From the IMG/VR virus record IMGVR_UViG_3300032342_000049, positions 1 through 28,365 of that record: a stretch of 28,365 nucleotides of DNA, one strand, 5' to 3'. This document shows positions 603-28,365 of the stretch, one piece after another. The DNA comes from a virus. The number at the start of each line of letters is the position of its first letter. Position 1 is the first letter of the stretch. Below the pieces are notes generated by a model. That model saw nothing but the letters and a program-made list of their open reading frames with translations, made no database searches and was not told where the DNA came from. Position numbers and translations under genes: made by a program.

Positions 603-678
603 ATTAGGTTGTTATTTCTTTGCGATAATATGGATAATAGTTACAGTAGTATCATTACTACCTAAAAAATATGATTAA
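595..678 (+). CDS. possible 27-residue membrane peptide
   Basis: The start MYKLGCYFF is followed by one hydrophobic helix (about residues 5-21) and a basic LPKKYD end. The ATG lies inside the last codons of the upstream gene and the TAA at 676-678 overlaps the ATG of the next gene (671), a chained arrangement typical of translational coupling. AAGGA lies about 6 bases upstream of the start. It is probably an inner-membrane microprotein of unknown role. Confidence 0.5.
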   Translation: MYKLGCYFFAIIWIIVTVVSLLPKKYD

Positions 679-919
679 AATAATATTAATATTTTTAATT
701 GGTTTTATTGAACAACTTCTTTATACTGCTTATTTACTTAGTGTAAATAAGAAACAGGTAAAGGCATCTACAGTTTTGATGGTAGCTTACATGGCAATTT
801 ATTTATTCATTATAAGTTATGCTATTAAAGATGGTAATACCATTCCTTTATTAGTTGCTTATGCATTAGCTTGTGGGGCTGGAAATTATGTAATAATGTT
901 ATGGGAGAATAGAAAATGA
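671..919 (+). CDS. small multi-pass membrane protein, 82 aa
   Basis: Three hydrophobic segments are visible, at about residues 2-22, 33-52 and 60-76, with short basic loops (NKKQVK). The first helix carries a Gly-Phe-Ile-Glu-Gln patch and is followed by a tyrosine-rich stretch. This resembles small integral membrane proteins seen in many tailed phages, and I have a weak memory of a DUF5698-type family. The start lacks its own ribosome binding site and overlaps the previous ORF, so translation is probably coupled. The stop overlaps the ATG of the downstream peptidase gene. Function unknown. Confidence 0.75.
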   Translation: MIKIILIFLIGFIEQLLYTAYLLSVNKKQVKASTVLMVAYMAIYLFIISYAIKDGNTIPLLVAYALACGAGNYVIMLWENRK

Positions 920-1653
920 AAACCATAAGGTCATATAATAAAATAGTAACAGAATTGATTAATTTAAATCTCCCTTATAAGATAGAACTTATAGGATACT
1001 TAAATTATGACAAAATCTATCCTATGTTAAGTTTGAAATATATTTCTAAAATGAATAATAAAACAGTTATTATTACTAGTGGGCATCATGGAGAAGAATT
1101 TTATGCTGTAAATGTATTACTTAAATGGCTTAAACAACCTATTATGTTTCCAGAGTTTAATTATTATGTATTTCCATGTGTTAATCCATTTGGTTATGAA
1201 AAGAATTTTAGAAATAATTCGAATAATCAAGAAACAAATAACGATACCCATTTTATTAAAGATTCGAAAGTACCCGAATTAGCAATATTATTTGAAGAAT
1301 TTCCTAGAACCGCAGATTTAATATTAGATTTGCATGGAGATATAAGTAAAAAAGGAGTATATTGCTACGAACATAAATCAGAAAACTTAGAATCAATAGT
1401 TACTAAAGCATTAAGTGATAATGATAGTATTATTCCTTATTTAAGAACGAAAACGATTTATGGTACCCCTTTAAAAGAAGGAGTTATCATTCCTCCGAAA
1501 TATGATATTGGAGTTGAAGGATTTTTAGAAAAATTAGGAATACAATATAGTTTAGCTCTTGAATTACCAGGTATTTTTGATGGGCAGAAGAGAGCAGAAG
1601 GTGGAGTAAATATTATAAATTCTATTCTAAAAAATTTCAAGGAGATAAAATGA
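916..1653 (+). CDS. M14-family zinc carboxypeptidase-like hydrolase
   Basis: The 245 residues carry the zinc carboxypeptidase signature. GHHGEE at 56-61 supplies the HxxE zinc pair (H58, E61). CVNPFGYEKNFR at 88-99 matches the substrate-binding Asn/Arg region. LILDLH ending at H140 gives the third zinc ligand, and LALELPG with E216 is the catalytic glutamate strand. The compact length fits the short M14/aspartoacylase-type branch better than secreted carboxypeptidases. There is no signal peptide, so it should act in the cytoplasm. Related enzymes remove C-terminal amino acids, trim peptidoglycan peptides, or deacylate amino acids; the sequence alone does not decide between these. It overlaps both neighbours by 4 bases (ATGA-type coupling). 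Enzyme class confident, substrate unknown. Confidence 0.85.
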   Translation: MKTIRSYNKIVTELINLNLPYKIELIGYLNYDKIYPMLSLKYISKMNNKTVIITSGHHGEEFYAVNVLLKWLKQPIMFPEFNYYVFPCVNPFGYEKNFRNNSNNQETNNDTHFIKDSKVPELAILFEEFPRTADLILDLHGDISKKGVYCYEHKSENLESIVTKALSDNDSIIPYLRTKTIYGTPLKEGVIIPPKYDIGVEGFLEKLGIQYSLALELPGIFDGQKRAEGGVNIINSILKNFKEIK

Positions 1654-1763
1654 TTTACTGTGTATTAGAAGATAAGTATGTTGACCAAAATGATAGATGT
1701 GTCGGATGTGAATATTATAAAAAAGAAGAAGATACTTGTACAGCAGAGGAGACTAAATGTTAA
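1650..1763 (+). CDS. 37-residue Cys-rich (zinc-ribbon-like) microprotein
   Basis: The start MIYCVLED is preceded by a good ribosome binding site (AAGGAGATAAAATG), and the ATG overlaps the stop of the carboxypeptidase gene. The peptide has Cys at residues 4, 17, 20, 30 and 37, including a CVGC knuckle, which suggests a small metal-binding fold. The TAA overlaps the next ATG (1757). One of a family of tiny Cys-pair proteins spread through this window; role unknown. Confidence 0.6.
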   Translation: MIYCVLEDKYVDQNDRCVGCEYYKKEEDTCTAEETKC

Positions 1764-1900
1764 TTATAACTGAAATAGAATGTTTAGGAATATTATTAGT
1801 AGTTTGCTATTTATGTTTGTGCTATATTATAATGAAATTAGGTTATATAGAACAAAAAATAGATAAATTACCTCAGATTACAGAAAAGGAGACTAAATGA
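1757..1900 (+). CDS. 47-residue single-pass membrane protein
   Basis: The start MLIITEIEC has a strong upstream site (GAGGAGACTAAATG). The same AGGAGACTAAATG string precedes the next gene at 1897. Residues about 8-27 form one hydrophobic helix with several Cys, followed by a polar, charged tail. The gene starts inside the stop of the Cys-rich microprotein and its TGA overlaps the ATG of the serine protease gene. This tight coupling to a membrane-anchored protease makes a small partner or regulator of that protease conceivable, but nothing in the sequence proves it. Confidence 0.6.
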   Translation: MLIITEIECLGILLVVCYLCLCYIIMKLGYIEQKIDKLPQITEKETK

Positions 1901-2823
1901 TTAATTTAAAGAGAGATTTAATTGAGAGTATCGTTCTTGGATTAATTATTGGTATCATTGGTATTTTAGTTATTGTTCAATTTCAACAAACTAAAGCAAT
2001 TGATACTCAAAACATAGAAACAATTACTTCTCTTAAAAATGATATAAATACTCTTCAAGATGAAATAATTTATGCCGAAAACTATAATAATTTTATGTTT
2101 ACTGTAATGAATTCAACTGATAACATTATATTAGGTACTCAACAAGGATTAATTAAAGCAGTAGAAAATCTTCCTAATAAGATTAAATATGATAAATTTC
2201 AATTAGAACAAAAACTGAAACAAGTAAATGTAGAAATTGAAAATGCAACATTAGGAGTATTGGGTAGTGGAGTTTCAATTAAATATAAAGGAGAATATTA
2301 TATCTTATCAGCAGGACACATGGCAACTGTAGGTGCAAAAGAAATAATATTATTAAAGGAGAATGGTAATACTATTTGTGAACTTGAGATAGTTAAACAT
2401 TCTTATATTACACCTGAAGAAGATAGCGAAACTGGAGATGCAACAAAAGGAGAAGATTTATTACTTTTAAAACCTAAAGATTGGGATATACAACCTCGCT
2501 TTTATATTGAATTAGCAGATGTTGAACCAGTAACAGGAACTGAAGTTTATGTAGTAGGAAATCCATTAGGAATAGAAGATGTAATTAGTAATGGAAGAAA
2601 CATAGTTTATCATAATAATTTTATGTATTACATAGACCATACATATTATGGTAATTCAGGTGGTGGAGTATATAGTCAAGATGGTAAATTAATAGGAATA
2701 GTATCACACATGTTACCTTTACAACCGAATAGATTTGTGCCTCCATACATGATTTATGGTGCAGTAAGATTATCAGTTATTTATGATTTTCTTGCTGAAA
2801 TACCTTTACAAGTAGGAGAATAA
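1897..2823 (+). CDS. membrane-anchored trypsin-like (chymotrypsin-fold) serine protease
   Basis: 308 residues. An N-terminal helix at about 11-28 with a preceding basic RD should anchor the protein in the membrane. A coiled linker (about 35-115) rich in Glu, Lys and Leu follows. The C-terminal half is a chymotrypsin-fold domain: ILSAGHMA gives catalytic H141, GEDLLLL gives D187, and YGNSGGG at 251-257 places nucleophile S254 in the GNSGG box. The substrate pocket strand IGIVSH follows. No PDZ domain is present, unlike DegP/HtrA. If the N-terminus is in the cytoplasm, the protease domain faces the periplasm or cell exterior. RBS AAAGGAGACTAAATG is strong. Likely roles are processing of phage or host envelope proteins, or superinfection control; target unknown. 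Confidence 0.85.
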   Translation: MINLKRDLIESIVLGLIIGIIGILVIVQFQQTKAIDTQNIETITSLKNDINTLQDEIIYAENYNNFMFTVMNSTDNIILGTQQGLIKAVENLPNKIKYDKFQLEQKLKQVNVEIENATLGVLGSGVSIKYKGEYYILSAGHMATVGAKEIILLKENGNTICELEIVKHSYITPEEDSETGDATKGEDLLLLKPKDWDIQPRFYIELADVEPVTGTEVYVVGNPLGIEDVISNGRNIVYHNNFMYYIDHTYYGNSGGGVYSQDGKLIGIVSHMLPLQPNRFVPPYMIYGAVRLSVIYDFLAEIPLQVGE

Positions 2824-2824
2824 G

Positions 2825-3457
2825 ATGGATGAAAATAAAGTTCCTAACATTCCAGATGAATTAGAGGAAGAATTTTACTATACTACTTATTTAATTGGTA
2901 GTATGGAAAAGACTGCCGAAAAAGACGACGGTTCTGAAAAAAGAGCTGGAGTTGAAAAGGAACTTTTGTTACGTGGAATCTATCCTATCAATCCAGTTAA
3001 ATTAGAAACAACAAAGACAGGAATGACAACTGATGAAGTAAAAGAAAAGATGATAGGTTGGGTTGCTTCTGGTAATTGGGATTTATTTAAACAAAGAGCA
3101 GCAGAAATTTGGAAAGGTAAAGATTTAGTAGATAAAGATAAAGGAATAACTCACATTCCTGGAGATATAGATTATTGTACAATGTCAGATTGGATTACAT
3201 TTACTTTTAATAAGGGAGATGCTCCTTGTGGGTCATTTGCAGAGTGTGGTATAGCAATGGAACATGATATACCGATTTTTTTAATTACAGACATGCCTAA
3301 AAAGGAGTTACCAAAATCATTATTGCAGATGGTATTGGTTACTGGTGGAGAAGTTTTTAATACTTTACCACAATATTTGGAACATATCGATAAAGTTTAC
3401 AAACTAAAAAGAAAAGAACCAAAAATAGACCCTAAAGTAGAAGAGGTTAAAAAGTAA
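2825..3457 (+). CDS. nucleoside 2-deoxyribosyltransferase-like protein
   Basis: 210 residues. YLIGSME near residues 22-28 resembles the first beta strand and nucleotide-binding loop of the family. The block CGSFAECGIA (135-144), followed by a strand IPIFLIT, matches the GTxxExGxA active-site motif whose Glu (E140 here) is the nucleophile. The middle (about 60-110) is longer than in the smallest members, and the C-terminus is a charged Lys-rich tail. Family members swap the base on deoxyribonucleosides or hydrolyse N-glycosidic bonds. The adjacent dNMP kinase, joined by a one-base overlap, supports a role in nucleotide salvage or modified-nucleotide supply. Fold assignment good, exact reaction not determined. 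Confidence 0.65.
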   Translation: MDENKVPNIPDELEEEFYYTTYLIGSMEKTAEKDDGSEKRAGVEKELLLRGIYPINPVKLETTKTGMTTDEVKEKMIGWVASGNWDLFKQRAAEIWKGKDLVDKDKGITHIPGDIDYCTMSDWITFTFNKGDAPCGSFAECGIAMEHDIPIFLITDMPKKELPKSLLQMVLVTGGEVFNTLPQYLEHIDKVYKLKRKEPKIDPKVEEVKK

Positions 3458-15652: not shown

Positions 15653-17913
15653 TGTTTAATCTAAACGTAACTAATATTGCCAGTATAGGAAGAGAAATCT
15701 ATTTATGGCATAGAACTGGTAAGACTCTTTCCTTATTTAAAGATAAAAATTTCTTTCCGTATTTCTATCAAATCTCTCCCACAGGAATTTATAAAACAAT
15801 AGATAATAAAAAAGTAGATAAGATAGTATGTGCCCGGCCTTCTGATTTATCAAGAAGAAAAGACGAAAATAGTTATGAAGCAGATGTATCTTTTACCAAA
15901 CGGTATGTTATAGATAAGATTACATCTTTTGGTAAGGCAGACTTAAAATATTCTTTTGTTGATATCGAAGTATTATGTAAAGAATTACCTAACTATCTTT
16001 ATCCAGAAGACCCAATTTCATGTATTTCGTGTTCTAATTCTTATAATAATAAAATTTATTGTTTCTTTTTGTCAGTTTATACAGGTACAATTGAAGAACA
16101 AGAAAAAGAATTATTAAATAATTTTGTTAAATTTATTAGAACAGAACAATTTGATTTGTTATTAGGATGGAATTTTATTGAATTTGATTGGCTTTATCTT
16201 TGTGCAAGATATAAGAAAGTATTTGGATGTGAATTAGCGGAAATATTAAGTCCAATAGCACAATCTAAATATTTGGGAAGTTCTCAAAAGGTAGAACCGA
16301 CATTAATTCCTGCTGGTATAAGTATATGCGATTATTTAGAAATGTACAAAAAAATCTATCGTACAGAACCTTCTTATGCTTTAGATGCTGTTTGCCAAAA
16401 AGAATTAAAAGAACAATCTTATAAAAAGGTAGATTTTAGTAGATTGTCCGATGATATTAAGGAAAAAAATATAAATGATGTCAAAAGAATGATAGATTTG
16501 GAGAAAAAACGTAAGATTATAGAATACTATGATGAACTTAGGCGTATGTCTATGTGTGAATGGAGTGATGTTACCTGGAATAGTAAGATGTTAGATGTAA
16601 TTCTTTTAAGAGAAGCCAAACAAAAAGGGATAATATTACCTTCTAAGCATTATGGAGAAGGAATTGAAGTAGAAGAAATTGGATTTGAAGGAGCTTATAG
16701 AAGATGCGATACAGGTTTGTATAAAGGTCTTTGGAAATTAGACCTTTCTTCGGCATACCCAATGGCTATAATTAATTTTTGTCTAGACATTTCAAATATT
16801 AAGAATGAAGGAATTACCATAAACAAGGTAAAGTTTTACCAGAACGAAAATGCTTTACTTCCTACAATTGCTAGAAAATTAATTAGTAAGAAAGATATTT
16901 TAAAAGCACAACTCAAATCAACCAATCCAGAATTAGAAGAATATAAAGATTTAGAAATTAAGTATAATGCTATTAAAGCAGTAGTTAATTCTCTTTTTGG
17001 TGTGTGCGGATTAAAGATTTTTAGATTATTTGATTATAGAATAGCTTCAAGTATTACATTTTTAATTAGAGATTTATTACACTACATTGAAGACGAATTA
17101 AAAAAACGTAGTGTAAATGTTATTTATATAGATACTGATTCTGTTTTTATAGAAGCAAAAGAAAATCCAAAGGATTTATGTAATGAGTTAATTAAACAAT
17201 GGGCAAAAGAAAAATACAATAAAGATAGAATAGATATTGCATTTGATTTAGAAGGTCAGTTTGAAAAACTTTTTGTTATTGCATTGTGTCATTATAAAGG
17301 ATATCTATCTACACCCAAAGGTATAAAAGAAGAAATAAAGGGTATCGAAGTTCGTAGAAAAGATAGTTCTAACTTTATTAGAGAATTTCAGAATACTTTA
17401 ATTAATAAAATTATGAATGAAGAACCAAAAGAAGAAATAATTAAATGGATAAATACAGAAAAAGAAAGAATTAAAACGCTACCTCTGATTGATGTAGGAT
17501 TTCCTTGCAGAATATCTAAAGAAGCAGAAACTTACAAATCAATTCCTATATTTTTAAGAGCTTTACAATATACTCAAGAATTAGTACCCTCTTTTCAGAA
17601 AAATACAGGAGATAGTTTCTATTGGATTCCTGTAAAATCATTTGGTACTGCTACAAGAAAATCTAGTAGAAATAAGACTGATAAAGAAACAGGAGAAAAA
17701 TCGGTGCAATCTTCCGAAAAAGAAGTTAATAAGGATGTTCTTTGTTATGATGAAGATACTAATACCCATATTAAAGAAGTTAATTATGATAAAGTAATTG
17801 ATAAATCTATTACAATGAAGTGCGAAGCAATCTTTTTAGCATTGAAATGGGATTTATCTTTAATAAAAGAAATTAAACCTAAAAAAGAGAGAAAGAAAAA
17901 ATGTACTACATAG
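15652..17913 (+). CDS. family B DNA polymerase with 3'-5' exonuclease
   Basis: 753 residues. Exo I is SFVDIEVL (D104, E106). Exo II is GWNFIEFDW (N174, D179). Exo III is not in its usual Y-x3-D form; the nearest candidate is the segment around 277-285 (VKRMIDLEK), so the proofreading site needs checking. Polymerase motif A is LDLSSAYP (363-370), motif B is KYNAIKAVVNSLFG (437-450), and motif C is YIDTDSVFI (492-500). It replicates the phage genome, partnering the primase-helicase. The start overlaps the TerL stop and the end overlaps the PP-loop gene by 13 bases. Smaller than T4 gp43 (898 aa) but complete. Confidence 0.92.
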   Translation: MFNLNVTNIASIGREIYLWHRTGKTLSLFKDKNFFPYFYQISPTGIYKTIDNKKVDKIVCARPSDLSRRKDENSYEADVSFTKRYVIDKITSFGKADLKYSFVDIEVLCKELPNYLYPEDPISCISCSNSYNNKIYCFFLSVYTGTIEEQEKELLNNFVKFIRTEQFDLLLGWNFIEFDWLYLCARYKKVFGCELAEILSPIAQSKYLGSSQKVEPTLIPAGISICDYLEMYKKIYRTEPSYALDAVCQKELKEQSYKKVDFSRLSDDIKEKNINDVKRMIDLEKKRKIIEYYDELRRMSMCEWSDVTWNSKMLDVILLREAKQKGIILPSKHYGEGIEVEEIGFEGAYRRCDTGLYKGLWKLDLSSAYPMAIINFCLDISNIKNEGITINKVKFYQNENALLPTIARKLISKKDILKAQLKSTNPELEEYKDLEIKYNAIKAVVNSLFGVCGLKIFRLFDYRIASSITFLIRDLLHYIEDELKKRSVNVIYIDTDSVFIEAKENPKDLCNELIKQWAKEKYNKDRIDIAFDLEGQFEKLFVIALCHYKGYLSTPKGIKEEIKGIEVRRKDSSNFIREFQNTLINKIMNEEPKEEIIKWINTEKERIKTLPLIDVGFPCRISKEAETYKSIPIFLRALQYTQELVPSFQKNTGDSFYWIPVKSFGTATRKSSRNKTDKETGEKSVQSSEKEVNKDVLCYDEDTNTHIKEVNYDKVIDKSITMKCEAIFLALKWDLSLIKEIKPKKERKKKCTT

Positions 17914-18644
17914 TTAGTTTTTCAGGGGGTAAGGATTCTACTGCGGTACTTCTAAGATTATTAGAAGAAAAGAAGCCCATAGATGAAATTGTGTTCTTTG
18001 ATACAGGCTGGGAATGGCCGGAAGTATATGCTCATGTTAAAAAAGTAGAAGCATATATAAAAAGACCTATTGTATGGCTTACTTCTGAAAAATCATTTGA
18101 TTGGTGGATGTTCGAAAAACCTTGTGCAATTGGTAAAGGAAAAGGATTCCCCCGATTTAATTTAAGATGGTGTACAGGATTAAAACAAGATACTATTCGT
18201 AAATATTTAGTTGATAAAAAACCTTATATTAATTATATCGGTTTTACAAAAGGCGAAGAATACAGAATGGAAAGATATACCAAAGATACAACAAAAAGAT
18301 TTCCTTTAATAGAATGGGGAATGACTGAACAGGATTGTTTAGATTATTGTAAGGCAAAAGGATTTAATTTTGAAAATTTATATAAGTATATGAATAGTAC
18401 TTCTTGTTGGTGTTGTCCTTTACAACCCCTTACAGCATTAAGGAATGTATATAAGTATTTTCCTGATTTGTGGAAAGAATTATTGAGGATGCAAAGTAAA
18501 ACTAAAACCCCATTTAAAATTGACCACAAGAAAGATAAACAAGGAAAAAATATTTGCCCAGGAATTTATGTTACTGATTTAGATACTCGTTTTAAGAAAG
18601 AAATTAAAGATGGAATTTTTGATAAAAAATTAGGGGGGAAATAA
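17901..18644 (+). CDS. PAPS-reductase-like PP-loop protein 1
   Basis: 247 residues. SFSGGKDSTAV (6-16) is the PP-loop of ATP-pyrophosphatase/PAPS reductase enzymes. The strand FFDTGWEWPEV follows, with Cys groups RWCTG and TSCWCCP, and further Cys in DCLDYC and NICPG; these could hold a metal or iron-sulfur centre. The family includes PAPS reductases, tRNA thiolases and DndC (DNA phosphorothioation). The phage context makes a nucleotide or nucleic-acid sulfur chemistry more likely than sulfate assimilation. Start ATGTACTACATAG lies inside the polymerase end. Paired in tandem with the next gene, with which it shares a 14-base string. Confidence 0.8.
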   Translation: MYYIVSFSGGKDSTAVLLRLLEEKKPIDEIVFFDTGWEWPEVYAHVKKVEAYIKRPIVWLTSEKSFDWWMFEKPCAIGKGKGFPRFNLRWCTGLKQDTIRKYLVDKKPYINYIGFTKGEEYRMERYTKDTTKRFPLIEWGMTEQDCLDYCKAKGFNFENLYKYMNSTSCWCCPLQPLTALRNVYKYFPDLWKELLRMQSKTKTPFKIDHKKDKQGKNICPGIYVTDLDTRFKKEIKDGIFDKKLGGK

Positions 18645-19615
18645 TGCCTAATAAAATTCAGATTTGGGAATTAAAACAAAGACAATCATTACCTTTAGAA
18701 CAAAAAATAATCTTAACAAAAGAAAGAATAAGAGCATTTCATGATAAATTACAGGGAGAAGTATGTATATCTTTTTCTGGTGGTAAGGATAGTACAGTTC
18801 TTTTGCATATAGTTAGAAGTATGTACCCTGATGTTAAGGCAGTCTTTGTTAATACAGGACTAGAATGGCCGGAAGTGGTACAATTTGTCAGAGAAACAGA
18901 TAATGTAGAGATTATTAGACCTGAAATGACCTTTAAACAGGTATTAGATACTTATGGATACCCAGTTACCAGTAAAAAGATTGCTAAAATGCTTGAGTGT
19001 GTGCGTAATCCAAGTGAGGGAAATGCTACTGTAAGAAATCTTTATTTAACAGGTATAAGAGGAGATGGAAAGAAAGCATCTGGAAGTTGGAAATTACCAG
19101 CAAAATGGAAATTTTTAATAAAAGCTCCTTTTAAAATTTCAGACCAATGCTGTAATGTAATGAAAAAACTCCCATTTAAAAATTATACAAAGAAAACAGG
19201 ATTACATCCTTATGTAGCTACAATGGCAAGTGAAAGTAGATTAAGAGAAATTACATATTTACAAAATGGATGTAATAGTTTTACAGGTAAAGTTCAATCA
19301 CGACCTATGAGTTTTTGGCTAGAAGAAGATATCTGGGCATATATTAAGAAGTATAATTTAAAGTATGCTACAATCTATGATAAAGGGCAACAAAGAACAG
19401 GATGTATGTTTTGTATGTTTGGAACTCATTTAGAAAAAGAACCTAATAAATTTCAATGCATGGCAAAGACACATCCGCAACTTTGGGATTATTGTATTAA
19501 TAAAATAGGAGTAGGTAAAGTATTAGATTATATTAAGGTACCATATAAATTATTAGAAAATAGTACAAATGATGGACAACCTGACCATGAATTACCAATT
19601 CATGAACTGGAGTAA
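18644..19615 (+). CDS. PAPS-reductase-like PP-loop protein 2
   Basis: 323 residues. SFSGGKDSTVLL (PP-loop, about 43-54) is followed by VFVNTGLEWPEVV, matching the first PP-loop protein. MASESRLRE recalls the Gxx-ESxxR strand, and TGCMFCMFG near the C-terminus and DQCCN upstream give a four-Cys cluster typical of phage PAPS-reductase-family proteins. This version is the longer, phage-common type. It overlaps the first copy by one base, so both are made from one transcript. Both activating and accessory partners may be needed for sulfur transfer to DNA or RNA, but no IscS-like desulfurase is in the window. Confidence 0.82.
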   Translation: MPNKIQIWELKQRQSLPLEQKIILTKERIRAFHDKLQGEVCISFSGGKDSTVLLHIVRSMYPDVKAVFVNTGLEWPEVVQFVRETDNVEIIRPEMTFKQVLDTYGYPVTSKKIAKMLECVRNPSEGNATVRNLYLTGIRGDGKKASGSWKLPAKWKFLIKAPFKISDQCCNVMKKLPFKNYTKKTGLHPYVATMASESRLREITYLQNGCNSFTGKVQSRPMSFWLEEDIWAYIKKYNLKYATIYDKGQQRTGCMFCMFGTHLEKEPNKFQCMAKTHPQLWDYCINKIGVGKVLDYIKVPYKLLENSTNDGQPDHELPIHELE

Positions 19616-27460: not shown

Positions 27461-27568
27461 ATGTTAGTATATTTATTAATGATAATTTGTATAATAGGAC
27501 TTACAATAGTAGTTTTATGTCTATCAGAAGTTCTTTCTGAAGAATATAAAGGAGATAAGAATGATTAA
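27461..27568 (+). CDS. 35-residue membrane peptide
   Basis: Start at 27461, the codon with AGGAGGAAAATAGTAATG upstream. The product is one hydrophobic helix (about 2-23) followed by an acidic tail (SEEYKGDKND). It overlaps the deformylase gene by 8 bases. Could be a holin-like or regulatory microprotein, or a simple membrane anchor; unknown. Confidence 0.6.
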   Translation: MLVYLLMIICIIGLTIVVLCLSEVLSEEYKGDKND

Positions 27569-28031
27569 ACCGATTATAACTAATATAAAAGAACTTCGGA
27601 AACCCTGTCTGGAAGTTACTAAAGAAGATGATATTAAATCTATTGTTCAGGACTTAAAAGATACATTAGAATCAAAAAAGTGTGTTGGACTTACAGCAAA
27701 TCAAATAGGATTTAATAAAAAAATTTCTTACATAAAGATACCCAAAACTATTGATAAAAATAAACAGGTACAATACGGTGAATACGTTCTTATTAATGCT
27801 AAAATTATAGAAAAAGAAAGACTCATTAAAGTTAAAGGAGAATCCTGTATGAGTTTTCCTGGGATTGATGTTATTACTCGTAGATATGTTTTTTGTATTG
27901 TGCAGTATTATAATGAAAAAATGGAATTACAAACAGGAGCCTTTCAAGACCTAGAATCTATATGCGTACAGCATGAACTAGACCATCAAAACGGTATAAC
28001 TATCTTTCAAAGAAAGTGGGTGTCCAAATGA
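27561..28031 (+). CDS. def: peptide deformylase
   Basis: 156 residues with all three deformylase motifs: GLTANQIG (43-50, family GxGLAAxQ), ESCMSFPG (94-101, with metal ligand C96) and QHELDH (137-142, HExxH zinc or iron site). It removes the formyl group from nascent proteins at the ribosome exit. Phage deformylases are known from marine phages and cyanophages and are usually shorter than host ones, as here. With the bS21 homologue it suggests the phage supplies parts of host translation. RBS AAAGGAGATAAGAATG. Its TGA overlaps the M50 gene. Confidence 0.88.
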   Translation: MIKPIITNIKELRKPCLEVTKEDDIKSIVQDLKDTLESKKCVGLTANQIGFNKKISYIKIPKTIDKNKQVQYGEYVLINAKIIEKERLIKVKGESCMSFPGIDVITRRYVFCIVQYYNEKMELQTGAFQDLESICVQHELDHQNGITIFQRKWVSK

Positions 28032-28365
28032 TAATTTGTTTTATAGTCAGTTTAATTATTATTACAATTGTGCATGAAGCAGCTCATCTAATTGTAGCTA
28101 AGAAGTGTAAATGTGGTGTTATTAGATATAGTATAGGATTTGGTAAGCCTGTTTTATTAAGTAAAAAAATAGGAAATACAATATATCAATTAACTCCCTG
28201 GTTATTTGGAGGATATTGTGAATTAAAAGGAGAGTTAAAAGCAACAAAAATAAAAAATGCCTTTATAAATCTTCCTTATAGAAAGAAACTAGCAATTGCA
28301 ATAGCTGGATGTGCAGTAAATATGATTTCTGGAGCTATTATAATGTACATCGGATTAAGATTTCA
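28028..28365 (+). CDS. M50 site-2-type membrane protease, 3' truncated
   Basis: The window ends inside this gene; 112 codons are visible. ITIVHEAAHLIVAK carries HEAAH (16-20), the M50 zinc motif in the first transmembrane helix, and the start MIICFIVSLII is hydrophobic. GFGKPVL and GGYCELKGE match the strand and loop after the site in RseP/SpoIVFB-type proteases, and PYRKKLAIAIAGCAVNM recalls the segment before the third membrane helix. The NPDG ligand is expected further downstream, outside the window. It is translated through an ATGA overlap with deformylase. It would cut membrane proteins within the bilayer. Confidence 0.8.
   Translation, partial: MIICFIVSLIIITIVHEAAHLIVAKKCKCGVIRYSIGFGKPVLLSKKIGNTIYQLTPWLFGGYCELKGELKATKIKNAFINLPYRKKLAIAIAGCAVNMISGAIIMYIGLRF

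Follow-up and report, generated by a model that had tools for sequence, protein, structure and literature searches.

What does a virus gain from a trypsin-like protease that is held in a membrane? The question is raised by a linear viral record of 28,365 bases (the window, labelled G000 among the records compared here), in which an earlier note had read one gene as a phage protease with a membrane helix, a coiled linker and a complete H-D-S triad, and without PDZ domain. The gene consists of the following parts.

1897 to 2823, plus strand: membrane-anchored HtrA/DegS-type serine protease, 308 aa, without PDZ
1921 to 1977, plus strand: predicted membrane anchor, residues 9-27, N-in/C-out (from hydropathy and flank charge)
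1978 to 2226, plus strand: Gly/Pro-poor helical linker, about residues 28-110 (AlphaFold2 helices 2-90 and 95-110)
2317 to 2319, plus strand: codon of catalytic His141, invariant in 13/13 distinct proteins
2455 to 2457, plus strand: codon of catalytic Asp187, invariant in 13/13
2656 to 2658, plus strand: codon of catalytic Ser254, within GNSGG, invariant in 13/13

The reading frame starts with ATG behind a ribosome-binding site, AAAAGGAG, at 1884-1891. With the base composition of the window and independent bases, 308 sense codons in a row would arise by chance with a probability of about 3e-14, and G+C by codon position is 0.45/0.28/0.11. The product matches Pfam Trypsin_2 (PF13365) over residues 123-268 (E 4.9e-9, 37.5 bits vs a cut-off of 27.6), a Pfam scan finds no PDZ family in it at E<=1, and in the AlphaFold2 model the chain ends 8 residues beyond the final helix of the protease domain. 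The hydrophobic segment of residues 9-27 has a mean Kyte-Doolittle value of 2.87 and is flanked by a charge of +2 before it (N-terminus counted) vs -1 over the 15 residues after it, which by the positive-inside rule would put the N-terminus in and the C-terminus out; the catalytic domain is thus predicted to lie outside the cytoplasm, anchored in the cytoplasmic membrane. Helix, triad and missing PDZ domain are all as the earlier note had them, and of its coiled linker one half stands: the linker is modelled as helical, residues 2-90 forming one long helix at low to middling confidence, and a crude heptad test gives no support for a coiled coil in the window protein (p 0.67; p<0.02 in 3 of 13 members by the same crude test). 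Built on eight sequences, the model has a mean pLDDT of 70.7. Ten-residue means range from 67 to 92 in the protease part (111-300) except for dips at 171-180, 221-230 and 271-280; immediately ahead of D187 the window protein carries additional residues, and 173-184 are modelled at pLDDT below 50.

To which family does this protease belong? Fold prediction, which had been suggested as a check, points to an HtrA/DegS type: VIA-align ranks DegS-deltaPDZ first among PDB entries (2qf0_E, Z 20.6, rmsd 3.6 over 190 residues), and Foldseek has chain F of that entry in its first row (E 5.4e-10). Since other HtrA proteins lie within 1 Z of DegS-deltaPDZ in VIA-align and such rows count as tied, it is safest to speak of the 'HtrA family', with 'DegS' as the best choice if one name is to be given. 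Profile A1, made from eight proteins, matches DegQ and DegS at E of about 1e-16. At E<=0.001, 12 of 13 distinct proteins match the NCBIfam Do/HtrA model (TIGR02037) and 10 of 13 aligned proteins the DegS model (TIGR02038); the match of the protease L020 to the latter starts at model position 2, that is, at its N-terminal end. The window protein itself matches TIGR02037 weakly (E 1.4e-4, 21 bits vs a curated 416.2) and has no match to TIGR02038 at E<=0.01, and the curated HtrA/DegS cut-offs are far from reached by the two proteins for which scores are given. By fold and profile searches, then, the window protease appears nearest to HtrA/DegS; it works, as we read it, like DegS, and is not filed as DegS because the PDZ domain is missing and the curated score is not reached. 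An exfoliative-toxin-like protease was also considered and dropped, as its single-sequence search reached E 0.05 at best and the profile matches to DegS/DegQ are far stronger.

How far does the gene spread? A search with the polymerase brought 15 related viral records, an alignment search seven more, and a search with the M50 protease described below one more (G023). Trypsins are found in 17 of the 24 records, window included, so that the remark of the earlier note that phages rarely carry such proteins does not suit a lineage in which the gene recurs. Eight of the 15 polymerase-found records have a trypsin over the Pfam cut-off, and seven of these match the window protein itself, G005 being the one that is unmatched. 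The seven records without trypsin (G001-G004, G008, G010 and G014) are short fragments of 4 to 33 kb, in which no more than about 8.2 kb precede the polymerase. In six lineage-1 records with both genes on one contig in that order, 10.7 to 17.4 kb separate the trypsin from the polymerase downstream of it; because this distance exceeds the upstream stretch of the fragments, these seven do not show absence. In G015 (68.7 kb), a distant relative, the trypsin comes just after the polymerase. It is to be noted that G016, G018 and G023 are counted as lineage 1 by shared gene order, not by the polymerase search.

Residues H141, D187 and S254 were invariant in 8 of 8 aligned proteins and then in 13 of 13 distinct ones. 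All 13 have a hydrophobic N-terminal segment, with a higher net charge before than after it in 11 and an equal one in two. Loss of the anchor in relatives had been named as a finding that would speak against the original reading; anchor and long linker are kept in 10 of the 13, with 79-153 residues from the segment to the catalytic-His motif. In the trypsins of G005, G021 and G022 this distance is only 33-47 residues, and these may be secreted. The G005 protein is very divergent (19% identity to the window protein, GCSG instead of GNSG). Its neighbours are those of its lineage relatives, its N-terminus is hydrophobic and resembles a signal peptide, and its linker is short. Because such a protein sits at the same place, extracytoplasmic location looks more constant than the anchor, and this place in the lineage seems to keep an extracytoplasmic-looking trypsin even if the protein is replaced or remodelled. 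Outside the set, single-protein searches of viral contigs gave no close relatives of the window protein or of its neighbour F2, matched only its own record for L020, and only three already known records for the protease L048; two scans of genome contigs gave no relative of the protease alignment or of the polymerase. Trypsin-domain phage proteins are already known in databases: the window trypsin matches PHROG 9683 (E 2.2e-13), and among annotated phage records there are 12 remote matches to it, covering 22-53% of the query at 27-37% identity. L020 is matched by 28 such records; one of these covers more than 80% of the query, with an identity of 24.8%, and several appear to be bacterial DNA, judged by their degS/degQ/Do names.

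What surrounds the trypsin gene? Its nearest neighbours in the window are these.

671 to 919, plus strand: small membrane protein with DUF5698, conserved neighbour F14 (PF18955, E 2.2e-7)
916 to 1653, plus strand: AspA/AstE-like zinc deacylase, conserved neighbour F10 (PF24827, E 9e-6, just over the cut-off)
1757 to 1900, plus strand: predicted single-pass membrane ORF, 47 aa, overlapping the protease start in ATGA (from sequence)
2825 to 3457, plus strand: F2, a conserved neighbour without a match in Pfam or PHROG at E<=1

Across lineage 1 a gene order recurs with gains and losses: F9, DUF5698 membrane protein, (amidoligase), AspA/AstE-like deacylase, (Cys-rich small protein), trypsin, and then F2, F3, F5, 5'-3' exonuclease, F7 and a helicase-like protein of 610-630 aa (labelled by eye). 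The amidoligase, for example L035:7558-8241:+, lies near deacylase and trypsin in several relatives, and the F3 neighbour L035:11333-11782:+ has a weak, below-cut-off match to a dATP/dGTP diphosphohydrolase N-domain. In G013, inteins (Pfam Intein_splicing) interrupt the F2 protein (L032:5212-6816:-) and the DNA polymerase (L058:15658-18939:-), and two ORFs in L059, helicase and terminase by eye, are much longer than those of the window and perhaps also contain inteins. The earlier note had set the protease apart from capsid maturation and had advised looking for lysis or superinfection genes nearby. The first point is borne out by the surroundings, with genes for a dNMP kinase and a 5'-3' exonuclease near the window protease, and with the tape-measure gene of G006 far from the trypsin on the opposite strand (other virion genes of G006 were placed by position, not by match). 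The second found no counterpart, as none of the trypsin neighbours scanned was recognised as a lysis or superinfection gene; in G006, five endolysin sequence motifs gave no hit and Pfam gave no lysis family on ten chosen proteins.

Some further genes are recorded here for themselves. Two adjoining ORFs at 17901-19615 of the window resemble PAPS-reductase/ATP-pyrophosphatase proteins by eye. G006 has a run of sugar-nucleotide and glycosyltransferase-looking genes (L085:3663-13273, by eye) and elsewhere a weak, below-cut-off O-antigen-ligase match, together hinting at a change of surface glycans. It also has an integrase-family gene (L083:18182-18988:+, PF00589, E 2.3e-14), and lineage members may therefore not be strictly lytic.

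At the very end of the window stands a second protease gene, which the earlier note had missed.

27561 to 28031, plus strand: peptide deformylase, directly upstream of the M50 gene (PF01327, E 5e-35)
28028 to 28365, plus strand: first part of the gene for a site-2 (M50, RseP-type) intramembrane protease, truncated where the window stops (PF02163, E 6e-21)
28073 to 28087: HEAAH zinc motif of this M50 protease; the window copy ends before the D-G motif

The M50 match spans 28040-28354 (75.2 vs a cut-off of 27.2 bits), and its gene overlaps the end of the deformylase gene from 28028 on; a deformylase-like ORF is seen by eye upstream in 11 of 12 M50 loci. The protease is over the PF02163 cut-off in 12 of 23 records, window included, and in 13 of 24 with G023. 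HExxH and P-x-x-D-G are invariant in 9 of 9 aligned relatives, and profile A3 matches RseP (E 7.5e-28) and 'zinc metalloprotease aq_1964' (E 2.9e-35). Full-length relatives have only about 190-220 aa and therefore no room for the PDZ pair of RseP; that of L066 (192 aa) scores 101.3 bits, below the curated 147.55 of RseP. The one M50 protein scanned against PHROG had no match at E<=1, and of the annotated phage records 14 match, none covering 80%. Among the matches listed from open-licence PMC literature, none was recognised as dealing with a phage-encoded site-2 protease or a membrane-anchored phage trypsin. Two M16 (insulinase-type) peptidase genes were seen, in G006 (L084:15945-17096:+) and in G023 (L121:6570-7718:+), the latter directly after the M50 gene; a BT1/MFS transporter (L117:8368-9618:+) follows M50 in G006, and similar multi-pass ORFs are found by eye near M50 elsewhere.

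Both proteases occur together in ten records (G000, G005, G006, G007, G009, G011, G013, G016, G018 and G023), in all ten on one strand and non-adjacent. The trypsin lies 20-29 kb upstream of M50 in eight of them, and in G007 and G013 the contig order is reversed, as is expected of a circularly permuted map. M50 without trypsin is seen in G001, G002 and G014, all fragments. Trypsin without M50 is seen in G012, whose contig runs on for just 1.8 kb after the polymerase, and in G015, G017, G019, G020, G021 and G022, which are distant or of other lineages by gene content and may be fragments.

M50 has further company. ClpP is found in 12 of 23 records, with no match in G023; 10 of the 11 M50 records that reach more than 1 kb past M50 have it, the window and G001 stopping 11 and 437 bases past the M50 match. 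Its best PHROG matches are 'head maturation protease', and it matches NCBIfam models for both Clp and head maturation protease, none over cut-off. Read against E. coli ClpP, the third triad residue of lineage-1 ClpP is presumably Glu or Gln. Seven of the 24 records (G006, G007, G012, G013, G016, G018 and G023) carry F23, a protein of the sigma-70 family, which is unmatched in G005, G009 and G011, whose contigs stop soon after the trypsin; the L035 copy is over the TIGR02937 cut-off (44.4 vs 42.9 bits), 4 of 4 aligned members match that model, and in Pfam F23 does not reach the cut-off of Sigma70_r2. Eight of the 24 records have F26 (G006, G007, G012, G013, G016 and G023 of lineage 1, and G017 and G019), with no match in G018. 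Its predicted layout, which by eye resembles that of a membrane anti-sigma factor, puts the N-terminal part in the cytoplasm and an outer domain beyond a transmembrane segment that is oriented as in RseA; some copies have a second N-terminal transmembrane segment, and all five distinct copies end in [WI]-[RK]-F, resembling outer-membrane proteins. Its structure model is poor (pLDDT 54.7), with no viral structure match at E<=0.001 and a few weak matches named outer-membrane barrels, and it has no PDB sequence match at E<=1. Six lineage-1 records with both proteases span the F23 place and M50 (G006, G007, G013, G016, G018 and G023): F23 is present in 6/6, ClpP in 5/6 (missing in G023) and F26 in 5/6 (missing in G018). 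G017 and G019 represent a second lineage, whose genes run terminase, deformylase, ClpP, F26, a 105-aa protein, anchored trypsin and Cas4-like exonuclease, small ORFs between genes being omitted; G020 starts just before the trypsin. M50 was not found in these three records. A proteasome-like ORF of G018 was not confirmed by Pfam at E<=0.001, and no anti-sigma factor was recognised among the genes annotated.

How can these genes be put together? In type, trypsin and M50, which both lack PDZ, appear to correspond to the site-1 and site-2 proteases of regulated intramembrane proteolysis, and this correspondence speaks for a joint role. We tentatively propose that the extracytoplasmic site-1-type protease works alongside the phage-encoded site-2 protease. 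The trypsin, probably expressed early, would be fixed by its tether in the cytoplasmic membrane, the HtrA/DegS-type catalytic domain facing outward; lacking PDZ, it lacks the regulatory domain of DegS and is for this reason probably active without a peptide signal. Its cuts would fall close to the membrane, in the extracytoplasmic parts of membrane proteins, with the helical linker setting their height; the RseP-type protease would next cut the leftover transmembrane stump, and the cytoplasmic fragments would pass to phage or host ClpP. The likely purpose would be the clearing or re-signalling of envelope proteins in takeover, and candidate substrates are a host membrane protein or anti-sigma factor and, from the phage, a membrane protein such as F26. 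We are much more confident of the anchored extracytoplasmic HtrA-type protease itself than of its pairing with M50, to which we give a little less than an even chance, because the co-occurrence inside one lineage may be plain common descent, the two genes are 20-29 kb apart in eight of ten records and the second lineage has no M50 match. That second lineage, in which deformylase, ClpP, F26 and trypsin adjoin, seems to offer more independent support, though M50 was not found there.

Is a trypsin that acts on its own a better account? An anchored protease that shaves the envelope, degrading receptors or injection-channel proteins for superinfection exclusion and having nothing to do with M50 and ClpP, would suit a predicted extracytoplasmic enzyme whose gene lies near nucleotide and replication genes, which is retained without M50 in G015 and the second lineage and which looks secreted at the same place in G005. 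It would, however, leave the recurrent company of deformylase, ClpP and M50 unexplained, and no exclusion gene was recognised around the trypsin; we regard it as rather unlikely. Less probable still is envelope quality control, in which the trypsin would clear misfolded phage or host proteins of membrane and periplasm in the manner of DegP/DegQ, with M50 and ClpP as parallel clean-up. DegQ and DegP are among the nearest sequence relatives, and the lineage encodes several predicted membrane proteins besides the transporter near M50, but there is no PDZ for substrate capture, and a tether fits near-membrane targets better than general clean-up. A phage-borne defence or counter-defence effector with a trypsin domain is very improbable: PADLOC matches RT-Protease_XI (E 1.2e-4 for the window protein and 3.9e-11 for L020) and, for L020, also LmuA (6.1e-8) and Avs1b (7.3e-6), yet these matches lie in the trypsin part shared with larger models, the domain here is predicted outside the membrane, and what we take to be the other parts of such effectors are absent. 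Phage proteases often serve virion maturation and the ClpP of the lineage matches head maturation models, but a head or tail maturation role for the trypsin is least probable of all, made very unlikely by an N-terminal anchor in 10 of 13 proteins and by a gene position among nucleotide and replication genes, away from the tape-measure gene.

The paired site-1 and site-2 reading can be carried further, to a phage signalling line by intramembrane proteolysis in which an unregulated DegS-like site-1 protease, an RseP-like site-2 protease, ClpP and the sigma-70-family factor F23 would be joined, with F26 as the substrate in the membrane. This fuller cascade is a doubtful extension, which we hold to be improbable; ClpP could be the protease of head maturation and F23 an ordinary sigma for late genes, and both count against it. 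If it were true, cleavage would free a cytoplasmic signal and switch host or phage transcription upon envelope change. The pair of trypsin and M50, for its part, would be an example of a virus that carries its own proteolysis of the envelope, and may be its own form of the two-step system with which bacteria sense envelope damage. Both proteases being free of PDZ, they offer minimal enzymes for asking what PDZ domains do, and the rewiring of envelope stress signalling by phages becomes testable.

How does this compare with known systems? In bacteria, stress signalling and sporulation both make use of a trypsin-like protease paired with a site-2 protease. DegS is the site-1 protease of the sigma-E pathway in E. 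coli, and the phage protein is predicted to share its N-terminal anchor and extracytoplasmic HtrA-type domain; unlike DegS it has no PDZ, has a longer helical linker and is phage-encoded. The phage M50 relatives have the HExxH and D-G zinc motifs of RseP and other M50 site-2 proteases, but they are about 190-220 aa long, without the PDZ pair, and below the curated RseP score. The trypsins of PHROG 9683 and of Sulfitobacter, Rhizobium and Sinorhizobium phages are of the same domain family as that of the window and differ from it by being remote, with the partial coverage and identity given above. In Bacillus, the trypsin-like SpoIVB works with the M50 protease SpoIVFB, which profile A3 matches weakly (E 2.3e-4); unlike that couple, the phage pair has no PDZ, and no sporulation context was seen. 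A case from phage biology itself is the CII protein of phage 186, which is reported to be degraded by host FtsH and RseP (PMC7708051): there, too, an RseP-type protease is tied to phage regulation, but the protease is the host's.
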